From positions 1-23,264 of IMG/VR virus record IMGVR_UViG_3300020401_000099: 23,264 nucleotides of DNA. One strand, given 5' to 3'. This DNA comes from a virus. Made by a program: the position numbers and the translations under genes. The notes under the pieces are model-generated. The model saw only the letters and a program-made list of their open reading frames with translations. It was not told the DNA's origin and ran no database searches. The number at the start of each line of letters is the position of its first letter. Within the stretch, counting starts at the first letter, position 1. This document shows, piece after piece, positions 2,121-19,664 of the stretch.

Positions 2121-5100
2121 TTAATCTCTGCCTTCACCTTTTTGACCAGACACTAAACCTCTAATTAAATCAATTGGCCCTCTTGGAATCCATCTGCCAT
2201 TTTTGTAATCATGTAATAAACCAATAGCTTTAGCAAACGGATATGTGGGTATTTGACCTATTAAACCCATAAGAGTTATAACACTTCTTACTTCATTACC
2301 TTTTACTTCTTTATTAGGATCAGCTAAATTTATAAAAAATCTTGCTGTTCCTTGCATAGTAGAATTTATTAATGATATTGATGGACTAATAGTTATACGA
2401 TCATTGTATGGCTTGTCATCAAATGCATTAAAAGGCAACATTAAAAATGTACTGCCTGTAGGAATAAAAGCTGACGTATAACGTGCATTTGAGAAAAATA
2501 TAAATTCTAAAATATCATCTAAATATCCATCTTCGTCTTCATCTACTAGACCACCACTAAAAGCTTCTTGTATACCTTCAGAAACAATAGCAGGTAAAAA
2601 TGAGCCAAATAAAAACGCATAAAATATTTGACCACTAAATCTACTATTTTTAAATCCAAGTTCTTTAACTGTTTTTTTGTATCGTGTCGCATTTAAATTT
2701 GCTTGTGAATTAAAATAACTTGTAAATTGAACAATAGCCTTAACAAGAGGAGTATCTATTTGATAAGCAGCTACATCTTCTGGTAATAAACTATCTTGTG
2801 TTTTACGCACATTTGCATCTGCTTGTGCTATAGCTTCTACTTGTATTTGTTGTGGTGTCATAGTTTTTGGTGCATTAGCTGTTACCTGATTCCATGTTGC
2901 TATCCAAACTAAACTATCTACAAAATTTTGAAATGCTTGTTGTAAAAAATATCCGTTTCTTCTTGTAAAGTTTTGAATTTTTTGATATTTATTTGGATTA
3001 ATAATTAAATCATTTAAAGTATTTTGTATATCGAACATTTGATTTATTTGTCGATCTGCCATAAAAGGTGACATTTCTGCTACTTCATCCATAGTTTCTA
3101 TTGGATTACGCAAATATCTTTTAAATGCATCTGTCATATATTTTTTTTCTAGGTTTAACATGGCAGGTAAAGCACCAGTTAATTGTTGTGAAGCATTTTT
3201 AAAACTCATAAACATATAATTTATACTTGTATTTTTTGTAAAATATTCAATTAAATTTCCAACTCCCCATCCTTCTTTTTTAATAGATGTTCTTTGTGTT
3301 GCTGCATTTTCTAACCAAGGCATAAGCATATTTTTATATGCAAACCTATCAATACGATTTAATTCAGATTTAAAATCTTTATCATTAAATAATTTTAATA
3401 AATCTGTAACAGCAGGTTGTACATAAGCAAAACGTAAAGCGTCATCTAAATGTTTTGCTTGATCAAATAAACTAATAGATAATGGTCTGTTTACTTCTGT
3501 TCTTGCTTTTGTAAATCCTCTAGGCACAGCAGGTACAGAATATCGCATTTCTTCTTTAATTTCTTCTAAAGTTTGATTTATATTTAAATCTTCATTTAAA
3601 ATATAATCAGGTTTTGCAGGTACATATCCTCCTTCAAATGTGCCAAATCTATTAACAATAGGAGTTGCACTTACTTCTTTAAAGTAATATCCAAAAACAT
3701 CTCTATGTGATTGTTGTATTAATGGTAATAATTCTTGGTTTAAATCAAATACTTTTTGTATAATTTCATAATCTTTTGCCGTTAAATATCCTTCGTCTTG
3801 CATACGTTTTTCAAATGCATCCCATTTAGTGCTATCTAATGATCCATCTTCTCTTAAACTACCCCAACCTCTACCTACTAATAATTTTGTTTTGTTGCTT
3901 AAATTACCTGTATGCAACAACGCTCCTATAAGTTCAACTTTACCTCTACCTGTTCTGTCACCAAATAAATAAGGTTCATCAAATTCGTAAGCATTAATTT
4001 TATCTGATCCAAAATCAAATTCTTTTAATAGTTCTAAATAACGTCCTGTATATTTTGGCCTTTCTGATCGCCATTTTGTAATTGGATCTTTAAGTGTTCG
4101 CCATATGTATCTTGTAAATGGCCCTGCTACATCTCCCTCTTTTGTTGTAAACACACCGCCACCTAATAGGCCATCACCTCTTAAAATTCTTGGTCTTGCA
4201 GCACTACCGTCAAGTCTCTCCGCCCAATGTTCTACACGATTACCTTTTGCTTTTTGACCTTCTAAAAATAATATTGTTTGTTGTATAAAACTTGCTTCTT
4301 TTCCTTTACCTGCTCTTATAGAAAGTCTGTCATCTTGTTCTTTCATAAGTGGTATTAATTCATCTTTTATAGCTTGTAGTTCTACTAATTTTTCACCAAT
4401 TTTAAATTGTTTATCTCGTCTAGATTGATACCACAATGAATCCATAATTTCAGTTAACGTATTAAAATCTCGATACGTTAAATCTGATATATCTCTACCG
4501 GGTAATAATTTTGCTTCAGTTATTATTGGATCTAATTGTTTGTATAAATCTGGTGCATAATTTTTAAGTTTATCTACAAAAGTTGCACCTGCTTCTAATT
4601 CTGGGCCTAATCCAAATCTAGATAATATTTCTTGACCTGCGTTAACAAATTCAATTGTTCTAGATTTTTTCTGACCAACTTTTTTATCACTATCTTTAAA
4701 AAACTTTTTAAAATCTTTTTCTGCTTTTATAAATTGTTTTTGTATTATTGCAGCTTCACGAGCTAGTTGGTTATGTAATAACTCTGCTTTTTTTGCTTGT
4801 ATAACTTTTAAATTATCACCTTCTCGCATAGCCTTTTCCGCATCTTTAACTGCTCTTTTACTTGCACGAGCGTATTCTGTTGGTCTAATCTCACCAATTT
4901 TTTTGTCAGCTAATATATCTCTTGCAACTTGTCTAGCAGCAGCTACTTGAAAACGTACTGGTTGCATAGTTTTAGTAAGAAATTTAAATTCAATAGCTAA
5001 AAATCTAGCTCTTGCTTCGTTATGTAATGCTTCTTGTATTTGTAATTCACGTTGTTCTGGATCTGTTAAATTACTAAATTCATCTAACATACGTTGTTCT

Positions 5101-8100
5101 GTACGTTCTTTTATAACAGTTTTTATAGGTTCTAAATCTACTAAACCATTAACCATATCTATTGCTGTATCAAAACCAAACATTTCTGCAACTATCTGTA
5201 CTGGTATGCCGTTCTTACCAACCATTCCGTTTTTACCTGTGCCTAATTTTTTTATTTCTGATGCCATGTCATAAAACGGCATAAGGTTTTTTAAACTATC
5301 AATATCTATTTTGCTAGTTTCTGCTGTTTTAAATTGGTCATTTTTTTTATTATTCCATTCGCCAGTTTTTAAAAACTTTTGTAATTTATACAATGGTTCA
5401 TTTTCTGCCTTAACAGTTTCTTCTGCCATAACTCTTTTACGAGTTTCTCTTGTTTCTCTGTTTTGTAATCTTTCTATTAATTTACTTTTTCTACTAAGCC
5501 ATTTAAGTTGACCCATACTTGCTTTAGTTAATGAATCTATAGCAGCATCCTGTGTTTCTTGTATAGCTTTTGTATATTCGTTCCATGTAGCATCATCCAT
5601 ACCACTTTGTTCCTGTGTTTCAAACATAGGTTTCATTGCGTATATTTGTTGTGATTGCAATATTGCATCTTCACTAGCTATCATGCGATCCATTACAGCC
5701 CTAACTTCATCAGTTAAAACAGGAAGATCTACACCATTTTCTTTCTTATATGTTTCATTTAAATCACCAACAATAGATCTATAAACTTTGCGTACATAAT
5801 CTCCAAACTTTATAAATATTTCTTGTAATCCAACATTAGGTGCTGCCTTTTTTTCTGTTAAATAAATTTCGTAATTATATGCAAATGCTTCATGGTATTT
5901 TCTTTTTTCTTTTAATGATAATTTGCTCCATGCATCTACATTTTCTACACCCCAAAAATCTAATAACGCATTAAAATCATTTTGTATTTCTGGTGTTGCT
6001 TGTCCTGTTAAGACTAGATCTTCCATGACAGTTAGCATAAAGTGTGCTGTTTCATGAAAAAACGTAGATATATCTGCTTCTGTATTTAAAAATGCAGTTA
6101 ATGTTTTAGGATCAAATCCACCTCTTGCATCATCGAAACCACTAGGTACTTGTTGTTGAGAAAATATTTTGCTTTGTTCTGCAAGATCTATAACATCTAC
6201 ACGAATAGATCCTCTAGGCTTTCCAACTGAGAGTCTGAAATCTCTTCGTCCATTTGGGAATTCATCATCGAGACTAAGTCTAGTAGGGTCGACTCTGAGT
6301 CCAACTGAGGTATCACCATAGCCAGTATCTGGGACATTTCTGGTGGTAACGTAGACATCAGGTTCTCCAGAACTTTTAAGTTCACCGGACTTTCTGATGC
6401 TGTCTGCTGCTTGTTTGTTGGTGTGATGGTAGACGGTAACTGTTCCGTCTTCGTTAAAGGGAAGTCCAGTTCCTTCATCAATTCTGGACTCAGGTTCGAT
6501 TCGTCCTTGTCGATAACTTTCATTATCCTGTTGTATTCCATCTGGTCTTCTTTCTCCTGATTCATCAACTCTTGCTCTGTCAATGCTCTGGTTTTGAATT
6601 TCAAGGTCTACCTCCTGTAATGTAGTTTGTATGTCAGTTTCTGATACACCAAATTTTTTAGCTAAATTTACAGAAGCATTAGCATAATCTGGTGCTTCGT
6701 CATCTACATAACCTTTAGTATCTTCTGCTTCTACTAGTTTAGCACTATCGTACAATCTTTTTTCGGGATACCATAGCAATGCTTGCAAGTCAGCCATTGT
6801 AAGATCTGGATTATTTTGTTGCAATACATCTAATGCTTGATTAAATACTTTTCTTATAAATCTTCTTTCTGGTGCACCACTTGGTGCTTCTTTTTGACCA
6901 TCTAAAAATTTTGTATAGCTAATACCATTTTTTCTTATTTCATCTCCTATACCTATTCTTACAGAACCTTTTCTTGGTTTTCCTAATATGTCAAATATTT
7001 TTTGTTCTACCTCTGGCTCGTCTTTTATGTTAGCTATTTCAATTATTGTTTCCCTAATATCTGTATCAGTACTTGCGTTATCTATAGCAACAGCAACTTC
7101 ATCTAAATTAGTCATTCTAATTTTGACACCTATAAGATCTTGTAATTTTTTTCTTTGTTTAGGACTTAATGCTTTTAACAATGGTTTTAACTGGTCACGT
7201 TTCATATTTGCTTGTTTACGTTGGTTTAAAACTAATGTTCCAGTTAAACGACCCCATGAACGTATTAACCACCTATCCATAGTAAGTTGTTCAAAAAATC
7301 CATATAAATTTGCAAAAAATCCATTACCAATTTTTGGCCCCATTACCGCAGCACCATAAACAATTTCAGATTCGTTTTCACCAGAAACTTTATCGTTTGT
7401 GTAAGCTTTAACTTCTTTTACTGTGTGTTGAGTTTTCATAAACTTTTCTAGTTCTACAAATTCTTTTTCTCTAATTAATCTGTTAAACAATTTAAAGTTT
7501 GCATTAATTGCCTGTGCTGCTTTACCTATTCCTATATCTGTAGGAAATTTACCAGTTTCTTTGTAATGTCTATATGCAATTTCTGCAAGTTCAAAGTTTT
7601 TATCTACTTTTATCATGTTAGAAGTATTTGCTAATGACCAAGTAAAAGCAAAATTAGCAACTGGATCTGTTGCTAGTTCTGGATGTATAAGTGATAATAT
7701 TCTTTTTGCTTTAGTTACTTTTTCGTTATACCAACCAACAGCATTACTATTTTCTATTAATGCAAAATTTGCATCATCTATAACTGATTGCACTAAATAT
7801 TTTTCTGTTTCTATTGACCCATCATTAACATCTATACCTGCTTCTTTTGCAGCTTGTTTAACTCTTTCTTGTAATTCTATTTTAAATTGTCTATTAGTAG
7901 GAAATGGTTTGCTTTTAGCAAAATCAAAACTATTTTCTAATTTATTAACTTGACTTACTGAATCTGGTATAGGTTTGCCTTGTTTTTGTGGCTTTGCTCT
8001 TTGTGAAAATATTTCACCTTCACTTTCTAACTCTTCAATTTTATTAAGTAATTCTAAATTTTTTAATTCCCATAGCCTACGTTTTGCATACGCATCTGTC

Positions 8101-10226
8101 ATTTTTGTCCTTGTCATTTTTTTGTTAACTGCCAATGGATCATTTGTCGTAACTTCTGCTTCTGACCCTGCAGTATATCTTTCGTCTTCTGGCACTTCTG
8201 GCGGTATATTTTGTTGATGTTCTTCGTGTTGTTTTTTTACCTTATCTAGTTCTTGTTTTACATCTTTTAAATTTTGTTGTTCAAGTACTTGTGTTTGTTC
8301 TGGCCCTACTACTTTATATGGATATTTTTCTACAAATTCATCAGGTGTTATTCCTAACCTATCTGATTGTGTTATTACATAACTTTGATAAAAAGTAGCT
8401 GCGTTAGTTGCGTCTTTATTTCTAAATTTACCAGTATCTAATAACATTTTTTCAAAATTGTTTTTTATTTTGCCAACACTATCTGTAAATTTATTAGTTT
8501 GATTTTCTTTTTTTTGTGTTATTTGTCTTGCTTCTTCGTATAGTTTTTGACGGTTAGTTTCAAAATATGTGCTTTCTGCCTTACTAAAACCATCTTTATC
8601 CCAACGTATATGTTGTTTTAAAAATCCATCAAATTCTGTACCTGCAAGTTTTGCTGCGTATTCACCTGTAGGTATAACAATATCCTGTCCAACTAATGCA
8701 CCTGATTTATTTAATTCTTTTATTTGATTAGCTATATTAGGTGACACTTGTTCTATGTCTTGCAAAGTAATGCCTTGTTGTTTCATTACTTCAACAACTG
8801 CTTGTGCATCTACATATGCAAATGGTTTGCCTTTATCGTTGCCTAAGTCTTGTGTTAAATCTTGATATTCTGTAGCACTTCTTTTTTTTAAAACACTTGC
8901 TGAAGAATTTGTTGATAATTCATTTAAAAATACTTCATTTTCTTTTGCCTTTCGTACTTTTTGTATATCACCTATAAATATTGGCCCACTTCCCGCCAAG
9001 CCAACTAAAGCCATACCTTGCATACTTCTTATAAAAGTAGTTGTTAATCTATCTGCTATTTCTGCTCGACCAGTTTCAGTTGAAATCTTTAATTCTAAAT
9101 CTGTATCGCTTAATGCTACTGCTAAATCACGACCTAAAACATTAGTAGCTTCTTGTGCTACTTCAGTTAATGATTCTGCCAACATATTATTTAAAAAATA
9201 ATTCTTAGCAAAATTTGTAATTGTAGTTTGTACAGTAGGCTTTGTTAATTTTTTTGTTAGTTGCTTTGTTGTTTCTTTTATTAATGCCTTTTTTACAGGT
9301 TGTGCAACTGCACCTAAACCAATAAATTCAAAACCTGCATTTACTAAACCAACACCTGTAGCAATATTTCTTGAAGTTTGACTATCTAAGTCTTCTTCTA
9401 ATAAATCAAGATACATTGAACCGCCTTCTATGGCGTAACTATCAAATGCCATTGAACCTAAAAATCCAACAATAAACCCACCTTTAGCTGTAAATATAGA
9501 ACCCGGCCCTGTAGCAGCACCTGCTACACCACTAGCAGCACCTGTATATAACCCAGTTTGTAATGCGTCTGGTAATGTTTTTGAGTATTGTCCAATTATA
9601 GAAAACCCTTCTTCAAATATTCCAGTACCATCTTTTTCTATTTCTTCTAATCTTTTATTAATTTCTGCTAATTCTTTATCTAATTCTTCGTCTGTATTGC
9701 CATACAATTTCATTGTACCTATTTTCCCTCTTCTTACATTTAATCTGCCTTTTTCCCAACCTTGTGCTGCATTTTCCGGAATGCTTTTAAAGTCATCAAA
9801 TAATTTTTCTAAACCTTGTAAATCACTTATATTGTCATAAGCAATAGCTGCAAACGTAGGATCAGTAAGTTTTAAATGTAATACAGGACTATATTTTGCA
9901 AGTTCTAAATCTTCTAATCGTTTTTGTCTATTTCTTTCTCGCATTAATTTTATTGCTTCATCGCTATCTAAAGCAAAACTTTTATCAAGCCCTATTTCTT
10001 CTGCAAGTCTTAAACCTTCACCTACCATCTCAGGGTCTTTTTTCATTACAGCTTGCAAATTAGCTTTAACTATATTGTTTCTACTTTCTTCATCACGTTT
10101 TGTTATTTCAGAATATGGGTTGTAATCAGGTTCACTACTAGTGCCAATGTTTTGACTAGGAGCTAATTCTATTATATTCTTTTTTTCTTCGTCATCTTTT
10201 GCAAATTGTTGGTAAATATTAGTCAT
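2121..10226 (-). CDS. Giant internal virion/ejection protein in the T7 gp16 position, with zincin and ART-like domains
   Basis: A single 2701-residue frame, about twice T7 gp16 (1318). It follows the gp14- and gp15-like genes, so it most likely forms part of the DNA-ejection conduit injected into the cell. A Gly/Ala-rich hydrophobic stretch lies at about 222-269. Two segments typical of large polyvalent phage proteins are at about 515-560 (IPTGEYAAKLAGTEFDGFLK) and 611-640 (YQSYVITQSDRLGITPDEF). An ART-like region spans about 1258-1345 (VYHHT at 1265-1269, DVYVTT from 1290, GYGD at 1302-1305). A zincin motif H1391-ETA-H1395 has candidate third ligands E1446 and E1453. Long helical stretches follow, then a GGYVPA motif near 2196 and a conserved-looking C-terminus with QADANVRKTQDS near 2469. 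I see no lytic transglycosylase domain. GGAAGG precedes the ATG, overlapping the end of the upstream gene. Residues about 1208-1343 are also open in a second frame. Domain roles are inferred from motifs. Confidence 0.82.
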   Translation of the reverse strand: MTNIYQQFAKDDEEKKNIIELAPSQNIGTSSEPDYNPYSEITKRDEESRNNIVKANLQAVMKKDPEMVGEGLRLAEEIGLDKSFALDSDEAIKLMRERNRQKRLEDLELAKYSPVLHLKLTDPTFAAIAYDNISDLQGLEKLFDDFKSIPENAAQGWEKGRLNVRRGKIGTMKLYGNTDEELDKELAEINKRLEEIEKDGTGIFEEGFSIIGQYSKTLPDALQTGLYTGAASGVAGAATGPGSIFTAKGGFIVGFLGSMAFDSYAIEGGSMYLDLLEEDLDSQTSRNIATGVGLVNAGFEFIGLGAVAQPVKKALIKETTKQLTKKLTKPTVQTTITNFAKNYFLNNMLAESLTEVAQEATNVLGRDLAVALSDTDLELKISTETGRAEIADRLTTTFIRSMQGMALVGLAGSGPIFIGDIQKVRKAKENEVFLNELSTNSSASVLKKRSATEYQDLTQDLGNDKGKPFAYVDAQAVVEVMKQQGITLQDIEQVSPNIANQIKELNKSGALVGQDIVIPTGEYAAKLAGTEFDGFLKQHIRWDKDGFSKAESTYFETNRQKLYEEARQITQKKENQTNKFTDSVGKIKNNFEKMLLDTGKFRNKDATNAATFYQSYVITQSDRLGITPDEFVEKYPYKVVGPEQTQVLEQQNLKDVKQELDKVKKQHEEHQQNIPPEVPEDERYTAGSEAEVTTNDPLAVNKKMTRTKMTDAYAKRRLWELKNLELLNKIEELESEGEIFSQRAKPQKQGKPIPDSVSQVNKLENSFDFAKSKPFPTNRQFKIELQERVKQAAKEAGIDVNDGSIETEKYLVQSVIDDANFALIENSNAVGWYNEKVTKAKRILSLIHPELATDPVANFAFTWSLANTSNMIKVDKNFELAEIAYRHYKETGKFPTDIGIGKAAQAINANFKLFNRLIREKEFVELEKFMKTQHTVKEVKAYTNDKVSGENESEIVYGAAVMGPKIGNGFFANLYGFFEQLTMDRWLIRSWGRLTGTLVLNQRKQANMKRDQLKPLLKALSPKQRKKLQDLIGVKIRMTNLDEVAVAIDNASTDTDIRETIIEIANIKDEPEVEQKIFDILGKPRKGSVRIGIGDEIRKNGISYTKFLDGQKEAPSGAPERRFIRKVFNQALDVLQQNNPDLTMADLQALLWYPEKRLYDSAKLVEAEDTKGYVDDEAPDYANASVNLAKKFGVSETDIQTTLQEVDLEIQNQSIDRARVDESGERRPDGIQQDNESYRQGRIEPESRIDEGTGLPFNEDGTVTVYHHTNKQAADSIRKSGELKSSGEPDVYVTTRNVPDTGYGDTSVGLRVDPTRLSLDDEFPNGRRDFRLSVGKPRGSIRVDVIDLAEQSKIFSQQQVPSGFDDARGGFDPKTLTAFLNTEADISTFFHETAHFMLTVMEDLVLTGQATPEIQNDFNALLDFWGVENVDAWSKLSLKEKRKYHEAFAYNYEIYLTEKKAAPNVGLQEIFIKFGDYVRKVYRSIVGDLNETYKKENGVDLPVLTDEVRAVMDRMIASEDAILQSQQIYAMKPMFETQEQSGMDDATWNEYTKAIQETQDAAIDSLTKASMGQLKWLSRKSKLIERLQNRETRETRKRVMAEETVKAENEPLYKLQKFLKTGEWNNKKNDQFKTAETSKIDIDSLKNLMPFYDMASEIKKLGTGKNGMVGKNGIPVQIVAEMFGFDTAIDMVNGLVDLEPIKTVIKERTEQRMLDEFSNLTDPEQRELQIQEALHNEARARFLAIEFKFLTKTMQPVRFQVAAARQVARDILADKKIGEIRPTEYARASKRAVKDAEKAMREGDNLKVIQAKKAELLHNQLAREAAIIQKQFIKAEKDFKKFFKDSDKKVGQKKSRTIEFVNAGQEILSRFGLGPELEAGATFVDKLKNYAPDLYKQLDPIITEAKLLPGRDISDLTYRDFNTLTEIMDSLWYQSRRDKQFKIGEKLVELQAIKDELIPLMKEQDDRLSIRAGKGKEASFIQQTILFLEGQKAKGNRVEHWAERLDGSAARPRILRGDGLLGGGVFTTKEGDVAGPFTRYIWRTLKDPITKWRSERPKYTGRYLELLKEFDFGSDKINAYEFDEPYLFGDRTGRGKVELIGALLHTGNLSNKTKLLVGRGWGSLREDGSLDSTKWDAFEKRMQDEGYLTAKDYEIIQKVFDLNQELLPLIQQSHRDVFGYYFKEVSATPIVNRFGTFEGGYVPAKPDYILNEDLNINQTLEEIKEEMRYSVPAVPRGFTKARTEVNRPLSISLFDQAKHLDDALRFAYVQPAVTDLLKLFNDKDFKSELNRIDRFAYKNMLMPWLENAATQRTSIKKEGWGVGNLIEYFTKNTSINYMFMSFKNASQQLTGALPAMLNLEKKYMTDAFKRYLRNPIETMDEVAEMSPFMADRQINQMFDIQNTLNDLIINPNKYQKIQNFTRRNGYFLQQAFQNFVDSLVWIATWNQVTANAPKTMTPQQIQVEAIAQADANVRKTQDSLLPEDVAAYQIDTPLVKAIVQFTSYFNSQANLNATRYKKTVKELGFKNSRFSGQIFYAFLFGSFLPAIVSEGIQEAFSGGLVDEDEDGYLDDILEFIFFSNARYTSAFIPTGSTFLMLPFNAFDDKPYNDRITISPSISLINSTMQGTARFFINLADPNKEVKGNEVRSVITLMGLIGQIPTYPFAKAIGLLHDYKNGRWIPRGPIDLIRGLVSGQKGEGRD
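6197..6604 (-). CDS. Candidate overprinted gene inside the giant virion protein gene (135 residues, unknown function)
   Basis: This same-strand frame is shifted by one base from the giant gene. It starts at TTG (6604-6602) and ends at TAG (6199-6197). Seven bases AGGAGGT stand five bases before the TTG, a perfect Shine-Dalgarno sequence in a position where the host frame only needs Gln-Glu-Val. The product is acidic and Met/Leu/Gln/Ser-rich, has no cysteine or tryptophan, and looks largely helical. Its end reads MMNSQMDEEISDSQLESLED followed by LFV. I recognise no family. In the overlapped segment the giant frame uses only CTT/CTC for leucine, while TTA dominates elsewhere in that gene; ordinary codon use returns outside the inner frame. 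This fits dual coding. An alternative is a recently acquired, less AT-rich ART-like module in which an alternative frame is open by chance. A role as partner or regulator of the ART-like domain would be pure guesswork. Confidence 0.5.
   Translation of the reverse strand: MKFKTRALTEQELMNQEKEDQMEYNRIMKVIDKDESNLSPELMKELDFPLTKTEQLPSTITPTNKQQTASESPVNLKVLENLMSTLPPEMSQILAMVIPQLDSESTLLDLVSMMNSQMDEEISDSQLESLEDLFV
6610..6616 (-). promoter_or_regulatory. Internal Shine-Dalgarno sequence for the overprinted frame
   Basis: The minus strand reads AGGAGGT, then AGACC, then TTG. The spacing suits initiation at 6604. In the surrounding gene Gln and Glu are usually CAA and GAA; here they are CAG GAG, which creates the site. 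This decides the start of the 135-codon inner frame. Confidence 0.55.
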
Positions 10227-19207: not shown

Positions 19208-19220
19208 TTACGGTCACACC
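19208..19220 (-). promoter_or_regulatory. Putative phage promoter element, copy C (GGTGTGACCGTAA)
   Basis: Identical to copy A over all 13 bases. It overlaps the last base of the stop codon of the 51-residue ORF and stands 27 bases before the Bbp19-like start. It would serve the head block, which ends at the terminator at 16382-16419. With its upstream flank it reads ATAGGTGTGAC, close to the TTAGGTGACAC core of the SP6 promoter. Confidence 0.62.
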
Positions 19221-19375
19221 TATTTTTGATTAGGATACATTTTTTTTGCAGTTTTTGCTGCGTTTTTAAAATCTTTAGCAGTTGGCCTACCCTTTTCACC
19301 TTTCTTTTTCATACGCTCGCCAGAACCTTCTTTAATTCTTTTGCGTTTTTTGTGGATATTTTCGTATAAACTCAT
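19220..19375 (-). CDS. Small basic protein with YENIHKKRKR motif (51 residues)
   Basis: ATG 19375-19373, stop TAG 19222-19220. The product starts MSLYENIHKKRKRIKEGSGE and continues with KKKGEKGRPTAKDFKNAAK, about one-third Lys/Arg. Very similar short proteins are common near head genes of marine phages; their function is unknown, and nucleic-acid binding is only suggested by charge. The start follows the previous stop after two bases, and the frame ends exactly at promoter-like copy C, so it closes the portal block. Confidence 0.72.
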   Translation of the reverse strand: MSLYENIHKKRKRIKEGSGERMKKKGEKGRPTAKDFKNAAKTAKKMYPNQK

Positions 19376-19377
19376 AA

Positions 19378-19515
19378 TTAATTATGATTTGAATTTGGAT
19401 AATACTTTTTAAGTAACTCTTTTTCTTTTTTTGTTAGTTCACCATAACCACCTACTTCAAGTTTTGTTTTTGCTTCAGCAGCTTTTTTCTTTTCTAGGTT
19501 TTTCATTAAGCCCAT
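19378..19515 (-). CDS. Small lysine-rich protein (45 residues), unknown
   Basis: ATG 19515-19513, stop TAA 19380-19378. The product (MGLMKNLEKKKAAEAKTKLE, then VGGYGELTKKEKELLKKYYP) is helical and charged, with a central GGYGEL turn. GGAGGT, a perfect ribosome-binding site, lies nine bases before the ATG inside the end of the preceding gene, and stop and start overlap as TAATG. No family recognised. The strong translation signal and tight packing support a real gene. Confidence 0.7.
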   Translation of the reverse strand: MGLMKNLEKKKAAEAKTKLEVGGYGELTKKEKELLKKYYPNSNHN

Positions 19516-19664
19516 TAGTTGTTACCTCCATAAAGTTTTTCTGCAAATTGTTCTAATTTAGATTTTTTTTTATTTTTCTTTTTGTTTGCTTCATCAGCGT
19601 TATGTTGTTCTATCATTTTGCGATACCTTACTTTGGCATCAGGTGATAAATTTTCAAATCCCAT
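19515..19664 (-). CDS. Small lysine-rich protein (49 residues), unknown
   Basis: ATG 19664-19662, stop TAA 19517-19515, overlapping the next start by one base. The product begins MGFENLSPDAKVRYRKMIEQ and contains an almost pure Lys/Asn run (KKKNKKKSK) before a helical end (LEQFAEKLYGG). GGGAG from the end of the upstream gene precedes the start. No family recognised. It is part of a run of three tiny basic proteins between the candidate head-accessory gene and the head block. Confidence 0.68.
   Translation of the reverse strand: MGFENLSPDAKVRYRKMIEQHNADEANKKKNKKKSKLEQFAEKLYGGNN

Follow-up and report, generated by a model that had tools for sequence, protein, structure and literature searches.

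The locus: a giant ejection-type gene with a second frame inside it

The window, meaning the whole 23,264-nucleotide stretch of viral DNA analysed here (IMG/VR record IMGVR_UViG_3300020401_000099), carries a podovirus late module with a terminase fragment, portal, scaffold-like, capsid and tail genes, gp14-/gp15-like genes, a giant gene and a tail fibre gene. The giant gene (10226..2121, minus strand) encodes a protein of 2,701 residues; its C-terminal half matches phrog_9880, and a region near the N-terminus matches LPD22. These matches, together with the gene order, identify it as a giant internal virion or ejection-type protein. Elsewhere on the minus strand, three consecutive lysine-rich small ORFs of 49, 45 and 51 aa (19664..19515, 19515..19378 and 19375..19220) lie at 19220–19664 between two conserved late genes, near-abutting or overlapping by one base.

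Within the giant gene, on the same strand and in the +1 frame relative to it, we find an inner frame of 135 codons (6604 to 6197, minus strand) that begins with TTG (6602..6604) and ends with TAG. The start codon is preceded by a Shine-Dalgarno sequence, AGGAGGT (6616–6610), and a 5-nt spacer, AGACC; an in-frame stop, TAG (6608..6610), lies two codons 5' of the start, and the Shine-Dalgarno sequence is not hidden in strong predicted RNA structure. Re-reading the sequence reproduced the coordinates, TTG start, spacing and length given for this frame in a preliminary description, as well as its position over the linker and the ADP-ribosyltransferase (ART)-like segment of the giant protein.

The overlap spans two parts of the outer protein, a linker (residues ~1207–1246) and an ART-like cassette (residues ~1247–1345; 6192..6488, minus strand). 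In the structure predicted for the outer protein under the inner gene, a 40-residue disordered linker is followed by a beta-rich domain, over which the AF2 pLDDT is mostly above 85. The best PDB matches of this predicted domain in Foldseek are the ART-fold proteins 6b, RhsP2 and TreTu, with probabilities of 0.89–0.99, yet with E-values of 0.04–0.12. Directly 5' of the overlap lies the outer domain of residues ~739–1207 (6606..8012, minus strand), the coding end of which bears the inner start signal. Soon after the cassette, at outer residue ~1385 in the window, the giant protein also has an HExxH metallopeptidase-like motif, FFHETAHFML.

The inner frame is open in relatives

An open frame of the observed length was reached in none of 5,000 synonymous-codon redraws of the outer protein, either for the window or for each of six relatives; in the redraws for the window, the longest open run averaged 35 codons and reached 110 at most, compared with the 135 observed. 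The first two scans of viral contigs yielded 29 distinct contigs with the overlap segment, all of which have 124–138 open inner codons and GGAGG at one fixed position, followed by TTG or ATG 11 nt after the first base of GGAGG (in L028, ATGATG begins at 8 nt). A further scan, queried with the inner alignment, found 95 relatives. The 80 that were retrieved carry the inner frame within a long outer ORF; five of the 80 were placed by manual reading, and in these the inner frame is also complete. Most of the sequences compared are assembled metagenomic contigs.

Additional scans used the outer domain 739–1207, which lies 5' of the overlap, so that the inner frame was not presupposed and the sampling was not biased towards it. 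These scans returned 356 loci with the domain, a redundant set from which ~119 distinct sequences were read, and the inner motif follows directly 3' of the domain in 348 of the 356; four further loci are cut off and four lack the motif. The latter are three Rhizobiales plasmid proteins, which are not in evident phage modules, and a remote locus in a metagenome-assembled genome (L142), the inner frame of which reads WRPLDVQQEWEEENE. All readable phage copies of the outer domain except the remote L142 have the inner motif after it, and the motif is absent from all 22 loci truly without the domain. The second frame thus stays open in homologues, the outcome that the preliminary description expected of a genuine gene.

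Distant homologues of the outer domain (25–29% identity) occur on alphaproteobacterial plasmids of Rhizobium, Bosea and Methylorubrum (L131, L132 and L133), where the nested motif is absent. The Bosea copy is part of a hypothetical protein of 533 aa (WP_069052323.1) with no evident phage module around it.

Start signals of the inner frame

Among 79 long forms of the inner frame, the start triplet is ATG in 55, TTG in 18 and GTG in six; AGGAGG is present in 75, and an in-frame stop two codons 5' of the start, at the same spacing, in 57. The outer residue at the inner start varies between Asn, Asp, Leu, Ser and Arg. Nearly all relatives start with ATG, TTG or GTG; some freshwater members have weaker start signals or none, and there some inner starts were assigned by reading frames directly. 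Among these members, the Shine-Dalgarno sequence is weak in some loci, and L231, L233, L236, L239 and L240 have ACG where others have ATG; an in-frame ATG occurs further 5' in L231, L239 and L240, and none is nearby in L233 and L236. In the Limnohabitans phage DC33 (PQ492659.1), an isolate that grows on Limnohabitans sp. DCL3, an ORF is present at the expected place but is not matched by the family profile, and it counts as the least secure member of the family. The taxonomy line of this record says Inoviridae; the genome has a podovirus-type giant ejection gene.

Silent variation is halved over the overlap

In 77 long-form sequences, the outer gene has a synonymous diversity of 0.290 upstream of the overlap, 0.146 within it and 0.293 downstream, and third-position heterozygosity follows the same course (0.380, 0.227 and 0.399). 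Similarly, across 49 full-length genes, the synonymous diversity of the overlap is 0.148, compared with 0.328 +/- 0.026 in 100-codon windows elsewhere, the lowest of which is 0.268. The overlap is the minimum of the 2,701-codon gene, ~7 standard deviations below the other windows, and the 14 windows of lowest synonymous diversity all fall in residues 1151–1390. The silent variation of the giant gene, which the preliminary description had singled out as informative, is therefore halved over exactly the overlap. Since the third position of the outer frame is the second position of the inner frame, this loss of silent change matches the prediction for selection on the inner protein.

Individual codons point the same way. 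Inner residue Gln11 is present in all of 112 sequences, encoded by CAA in 73 and CAG in 39, where the outer residue is Ala, Thr or Ser; Asn/Asp15 is kept in 111 of 112, through AAC, AAT, GAC and GAT, where the outer residue is Gln, Glu, Gly, Arg or Lys; and Glu19, where present, uses both GAG and GAA. Taken together, these comparisons indicate that purifying selection acts in both frames.

The ART-like segment as a mobile cassette and natural control

The ART-like sequence (..DE.TGLPLN.DGTVTVYHHT..) is found elsewhere at ~60–69% identity, both as stand-alone ORFs of 112–121 aa and as insertions in several other large proteins (L373, L374, L376, L377, L379 and L381, as well as L368, L378 and L385, which are ejection-type proteins without the 739–1207 domain). 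The segment is a mobile cassette. In these other genes the cassette has one to seven stops in the inner frame, whereas in the nested setting the frame is open to its own terminal stop; because of these stops, the ART-like amino acids do not force an open inner frame. An intact ART-like segment with stops in the second frame, the case named in the preliminary description as speaking against a gene, is indeed found, always in genes without the upstream start-bearing domain and never in the nested context. In L106 and L112, the ART-like part is changed at several otherwise conserved residues (e.g. VYVTT to VNLTT) and the nested ORF is intact, which suggests a decay of the outer function only.

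Short forms and the history of the inner gene

A short inner ORF (23–85 aa in our set), with the same start site and the motif M..Y.P.S.Q.E.N...E, is present in freshwater relatives that lack the cassette, among them GenBank MW202722 and MW202640. The inner protein of MW202722 alone retrieves that of MW202640, at 41.5% identity over the full length and an E-value of 0.02. A quick tree built from the outer domain, with the root on a long branch to bacterial homologues, places the phages with the cassette in a single clade (SH-aLRT 99), nested among cassette-free phages that already have the short inner ORF. The apparent exceptions are an incomplete contig (L201) and the altered cassettes of L106 and L112, which the search pattern had overlooked; in the clade of the window, cassette and long inner form always go together.

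The simplest account of these data would be an old, short nested gene, a single insertion of the cassette and a subsequent lengthening of the inner frame over it. This polarity of events is likely rather than certain, because the tree is a quick one with a long root branch. The comparison supports an inner gene that is older than the cassette and common to those podoviruses, marine and freshwater alike, whose giant protein is of this version, the constant part of its predicted product being the N-terminal motif of ~20 residues.

Properties of the predicted inner protein

The inner protein of the window has a pI of 4.2 and a charge of about -15 at pH 7. Its predicted structure, at a modest mean pLDDT of 68.5, consists of an N-terminal helix (residues 10–33), a disordered stretch and four C-terminal helices, in line with the ordinary acidic helical protein that had been anticipated. 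The N-terminal part (6503..6604, minus strand) contains the consensus motif, with the invariant Gln11 and the near-invariant Asn/Asp15 lying within the predicted helix, and the C-terminal four-helix region (residues 76–134; 6203..6379, minus strand) is found only where the outer gene has the ART-like cassette. GRAVY values of the inner sequences range from -0.5 to -1.6, and no transmembrane segment, lipoprotein signal or export feature of the kind found in spanins is evident in them.

Searches of Pfam, NCBIfam and PDB sequence profiles gave no significant match to the inner protein, nor did comparison of its predicted structure with the PDB and a viral structure library. The C-terminal region has a weak profile match to phrog_1371 in 27 of 29 members (best E-value 1.9e-6; window 0.061). 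The short forms tested do not match this family, a member of which was not found in seven named phages or in the 274 genomes searched, and the match is possibly compositional. A PADLOC match of the window's inner protein to PDC-M38B (E-value 0.0015, 16 bits) was absent in a relative and was disregarded. As an ordinary gene, the inner protein was not found in an isolate phage collection (queried with the window protein), in bacterial genome contigs or in the whole records of relatives without the domain, and a profile search for the N-terminal motif in other window proteins matched inner ORFs only.

Discussion

From the open frame in homologues and the reduced silent variation, we conclude that the locus almost certainly contains a genuine gene nested out of frame in another, the "gene within a gene" of the first description. 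The wider proposal, which adds to the gene its mode of expression and its origin, we regard as very likely. Ribosomes would start at the dedicated Shine-Dalgarno sequence and start codon within the giant-protein mRNA, and this internal initiation would yield a separate small acidic protein, 135 aa long in the window, the C-terminal half of which would have arisen by overprinting once the mobile ART-like cassette had entered the outer gene.

For the function of the product, we tentatively propose a part in assembly: as an accessory factor in the cytoplasm, it may bind the giant ejection protein by its N-terminal motif and act as a chaperone or holding factor. This role is suggested by the presumed translation of both proteins from one mRNA and by the retention of the gene in every phage with the adjoining domain. 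The evidence for it is genomic linkage, which physical nesting itself forces, and no family or fold match backs it in Pfam, NCBIfam, the PDB or the viral structure library. A bolder version, which we consider unlikely, makes the nested protein a built-in escort that would hold or silence a domain of the giant protein, most likely 739–1207, in the producing cell and be left behind at ejection, so that one message would encode effector and guardian in overlapping frames, with a tail overprinted on a toxin-like mobile cassette.

It is quite possible, if short of probable, that the product is instead a virion or host-directed protein that does not physically associate with the giant protein. It might be, for instance, a small adaptor in the head core, or a factor in host takeover for which the giant-protein message is no more than a vehicle for late expression; this would change the role assigned to the gene and not the gene itself. 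Short docking motifs typically show this pattern of a constant N-terminal motif and a variable tail, and no sequence feature makes an interaction with the giant protein necessary. However, a freestanding function should be movable, and in none of the phage records searched does the inner protein have an ordinary gene of its own.

A specific partner, inhibitor or antitoxin of the overlapped ART-like segment, as put forward in the preliminary description, is improbable. Although the long inner form and the cassette always co-occur in the window's clade, and the predicted structure of the overlapped segment resembles ART-fold toxins, the inner gene, along with its start site and N-terminal motif, persists in cassette-free relatives, cassettes elsewhere, stand-alone ORFs included, lack the inner frame, and in L106 and L112 the inner ORF is intact over a changed ART-like sequence. 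A role tied to this segment is unlikely because the inner gene appears to precede the cassette.

Shine-Dalgarno-like sequences stimulate frameshifting in known cases, e.g. prfB. The AGGAGG could accordingly stimulate a programmed +1 frameshift in translation of the outer gene, and the product would then be a shortened giant protein ending in inner-frame sequence; the freshwater loci L233 and L236 do keep the frame without a canonical start near the motif. We hold this to be very unlikely: the stop two codons upstream of the start, seen in 57 of 79 long forms and also in the window, would leave only two codons in which to shift, and what is conserved is not a slippery sequence but a start triplet at normal Shine-Dalgarno spacing. 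Least credible of all is that there is no second protein and that base composition, an RNA element or unusual outer codons account for the open frame and the low silent variation, since the overlap segment does differ in composition from its surroundings but codon redraws never give the open frame, inner residues stay invariant through synonymous codons where outer residues vary, cassette relatives in other genes have stops, and neither an Rfam match nor unusual folding was found at the inner start.

The nested gene seems to be widespread among phages and overlooked by annotation pipelines: it is unmarked in all three GenBank records examined, no PHROG, Pfam or NCBIfam model clearly describes it, and we found no paper on a gene nested in an ejection protein in the open-licence literature. 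It also offers a traceable case of overprinting, in which the arrival of a mobile domain would have been followed by the extension of a short nested gene across it; copies of that domain in other settings provide the natural negative control. If the inner protein does escort the giant protein, a previously unrecognised part would be added to the assembly and delivery of very large injected proteins in podoviruses.

In the spanin genes of lambda-type phages, Rz1 is nested inside Rz. Like this pair and other same-strand, out-of-frame phage overlaps, the inner gene is a small gene wholly within another, in a shifted frame, with its own initiation site and with both frames under selection. Rz1 is a lipoprotein that acts in lysis with its host gene (PMC6139136, PMC5295617), whereas the inner protein is acidic and hydrophilic (GRAVY -0.5) and is encoded within an ejection-protein gene rather than a lysis gene. 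The outer gene resembles those of T7 gp16-type internal virion and ejection proteins (PMC8954989) in following gp14/gp15-like genes and preceding the tail fibre in a podovirus late module; it differs in that its product, at 2,701 aa, is twice as long and polyvalent, and in that it bears a nested gene. The word "overlapping" does not occur in that review, nor in the paper on the polyvalent proteins of phages and conjugative elements (Iyer et al. 2017, PMC5512222). The giant protein is like these polyvalent proteins in uniting LPD22 with an ART-like domain in a single very large phage polypeptide encoded close to virion genes, and relative to that paper the nested gene, as read from sequence, is new.
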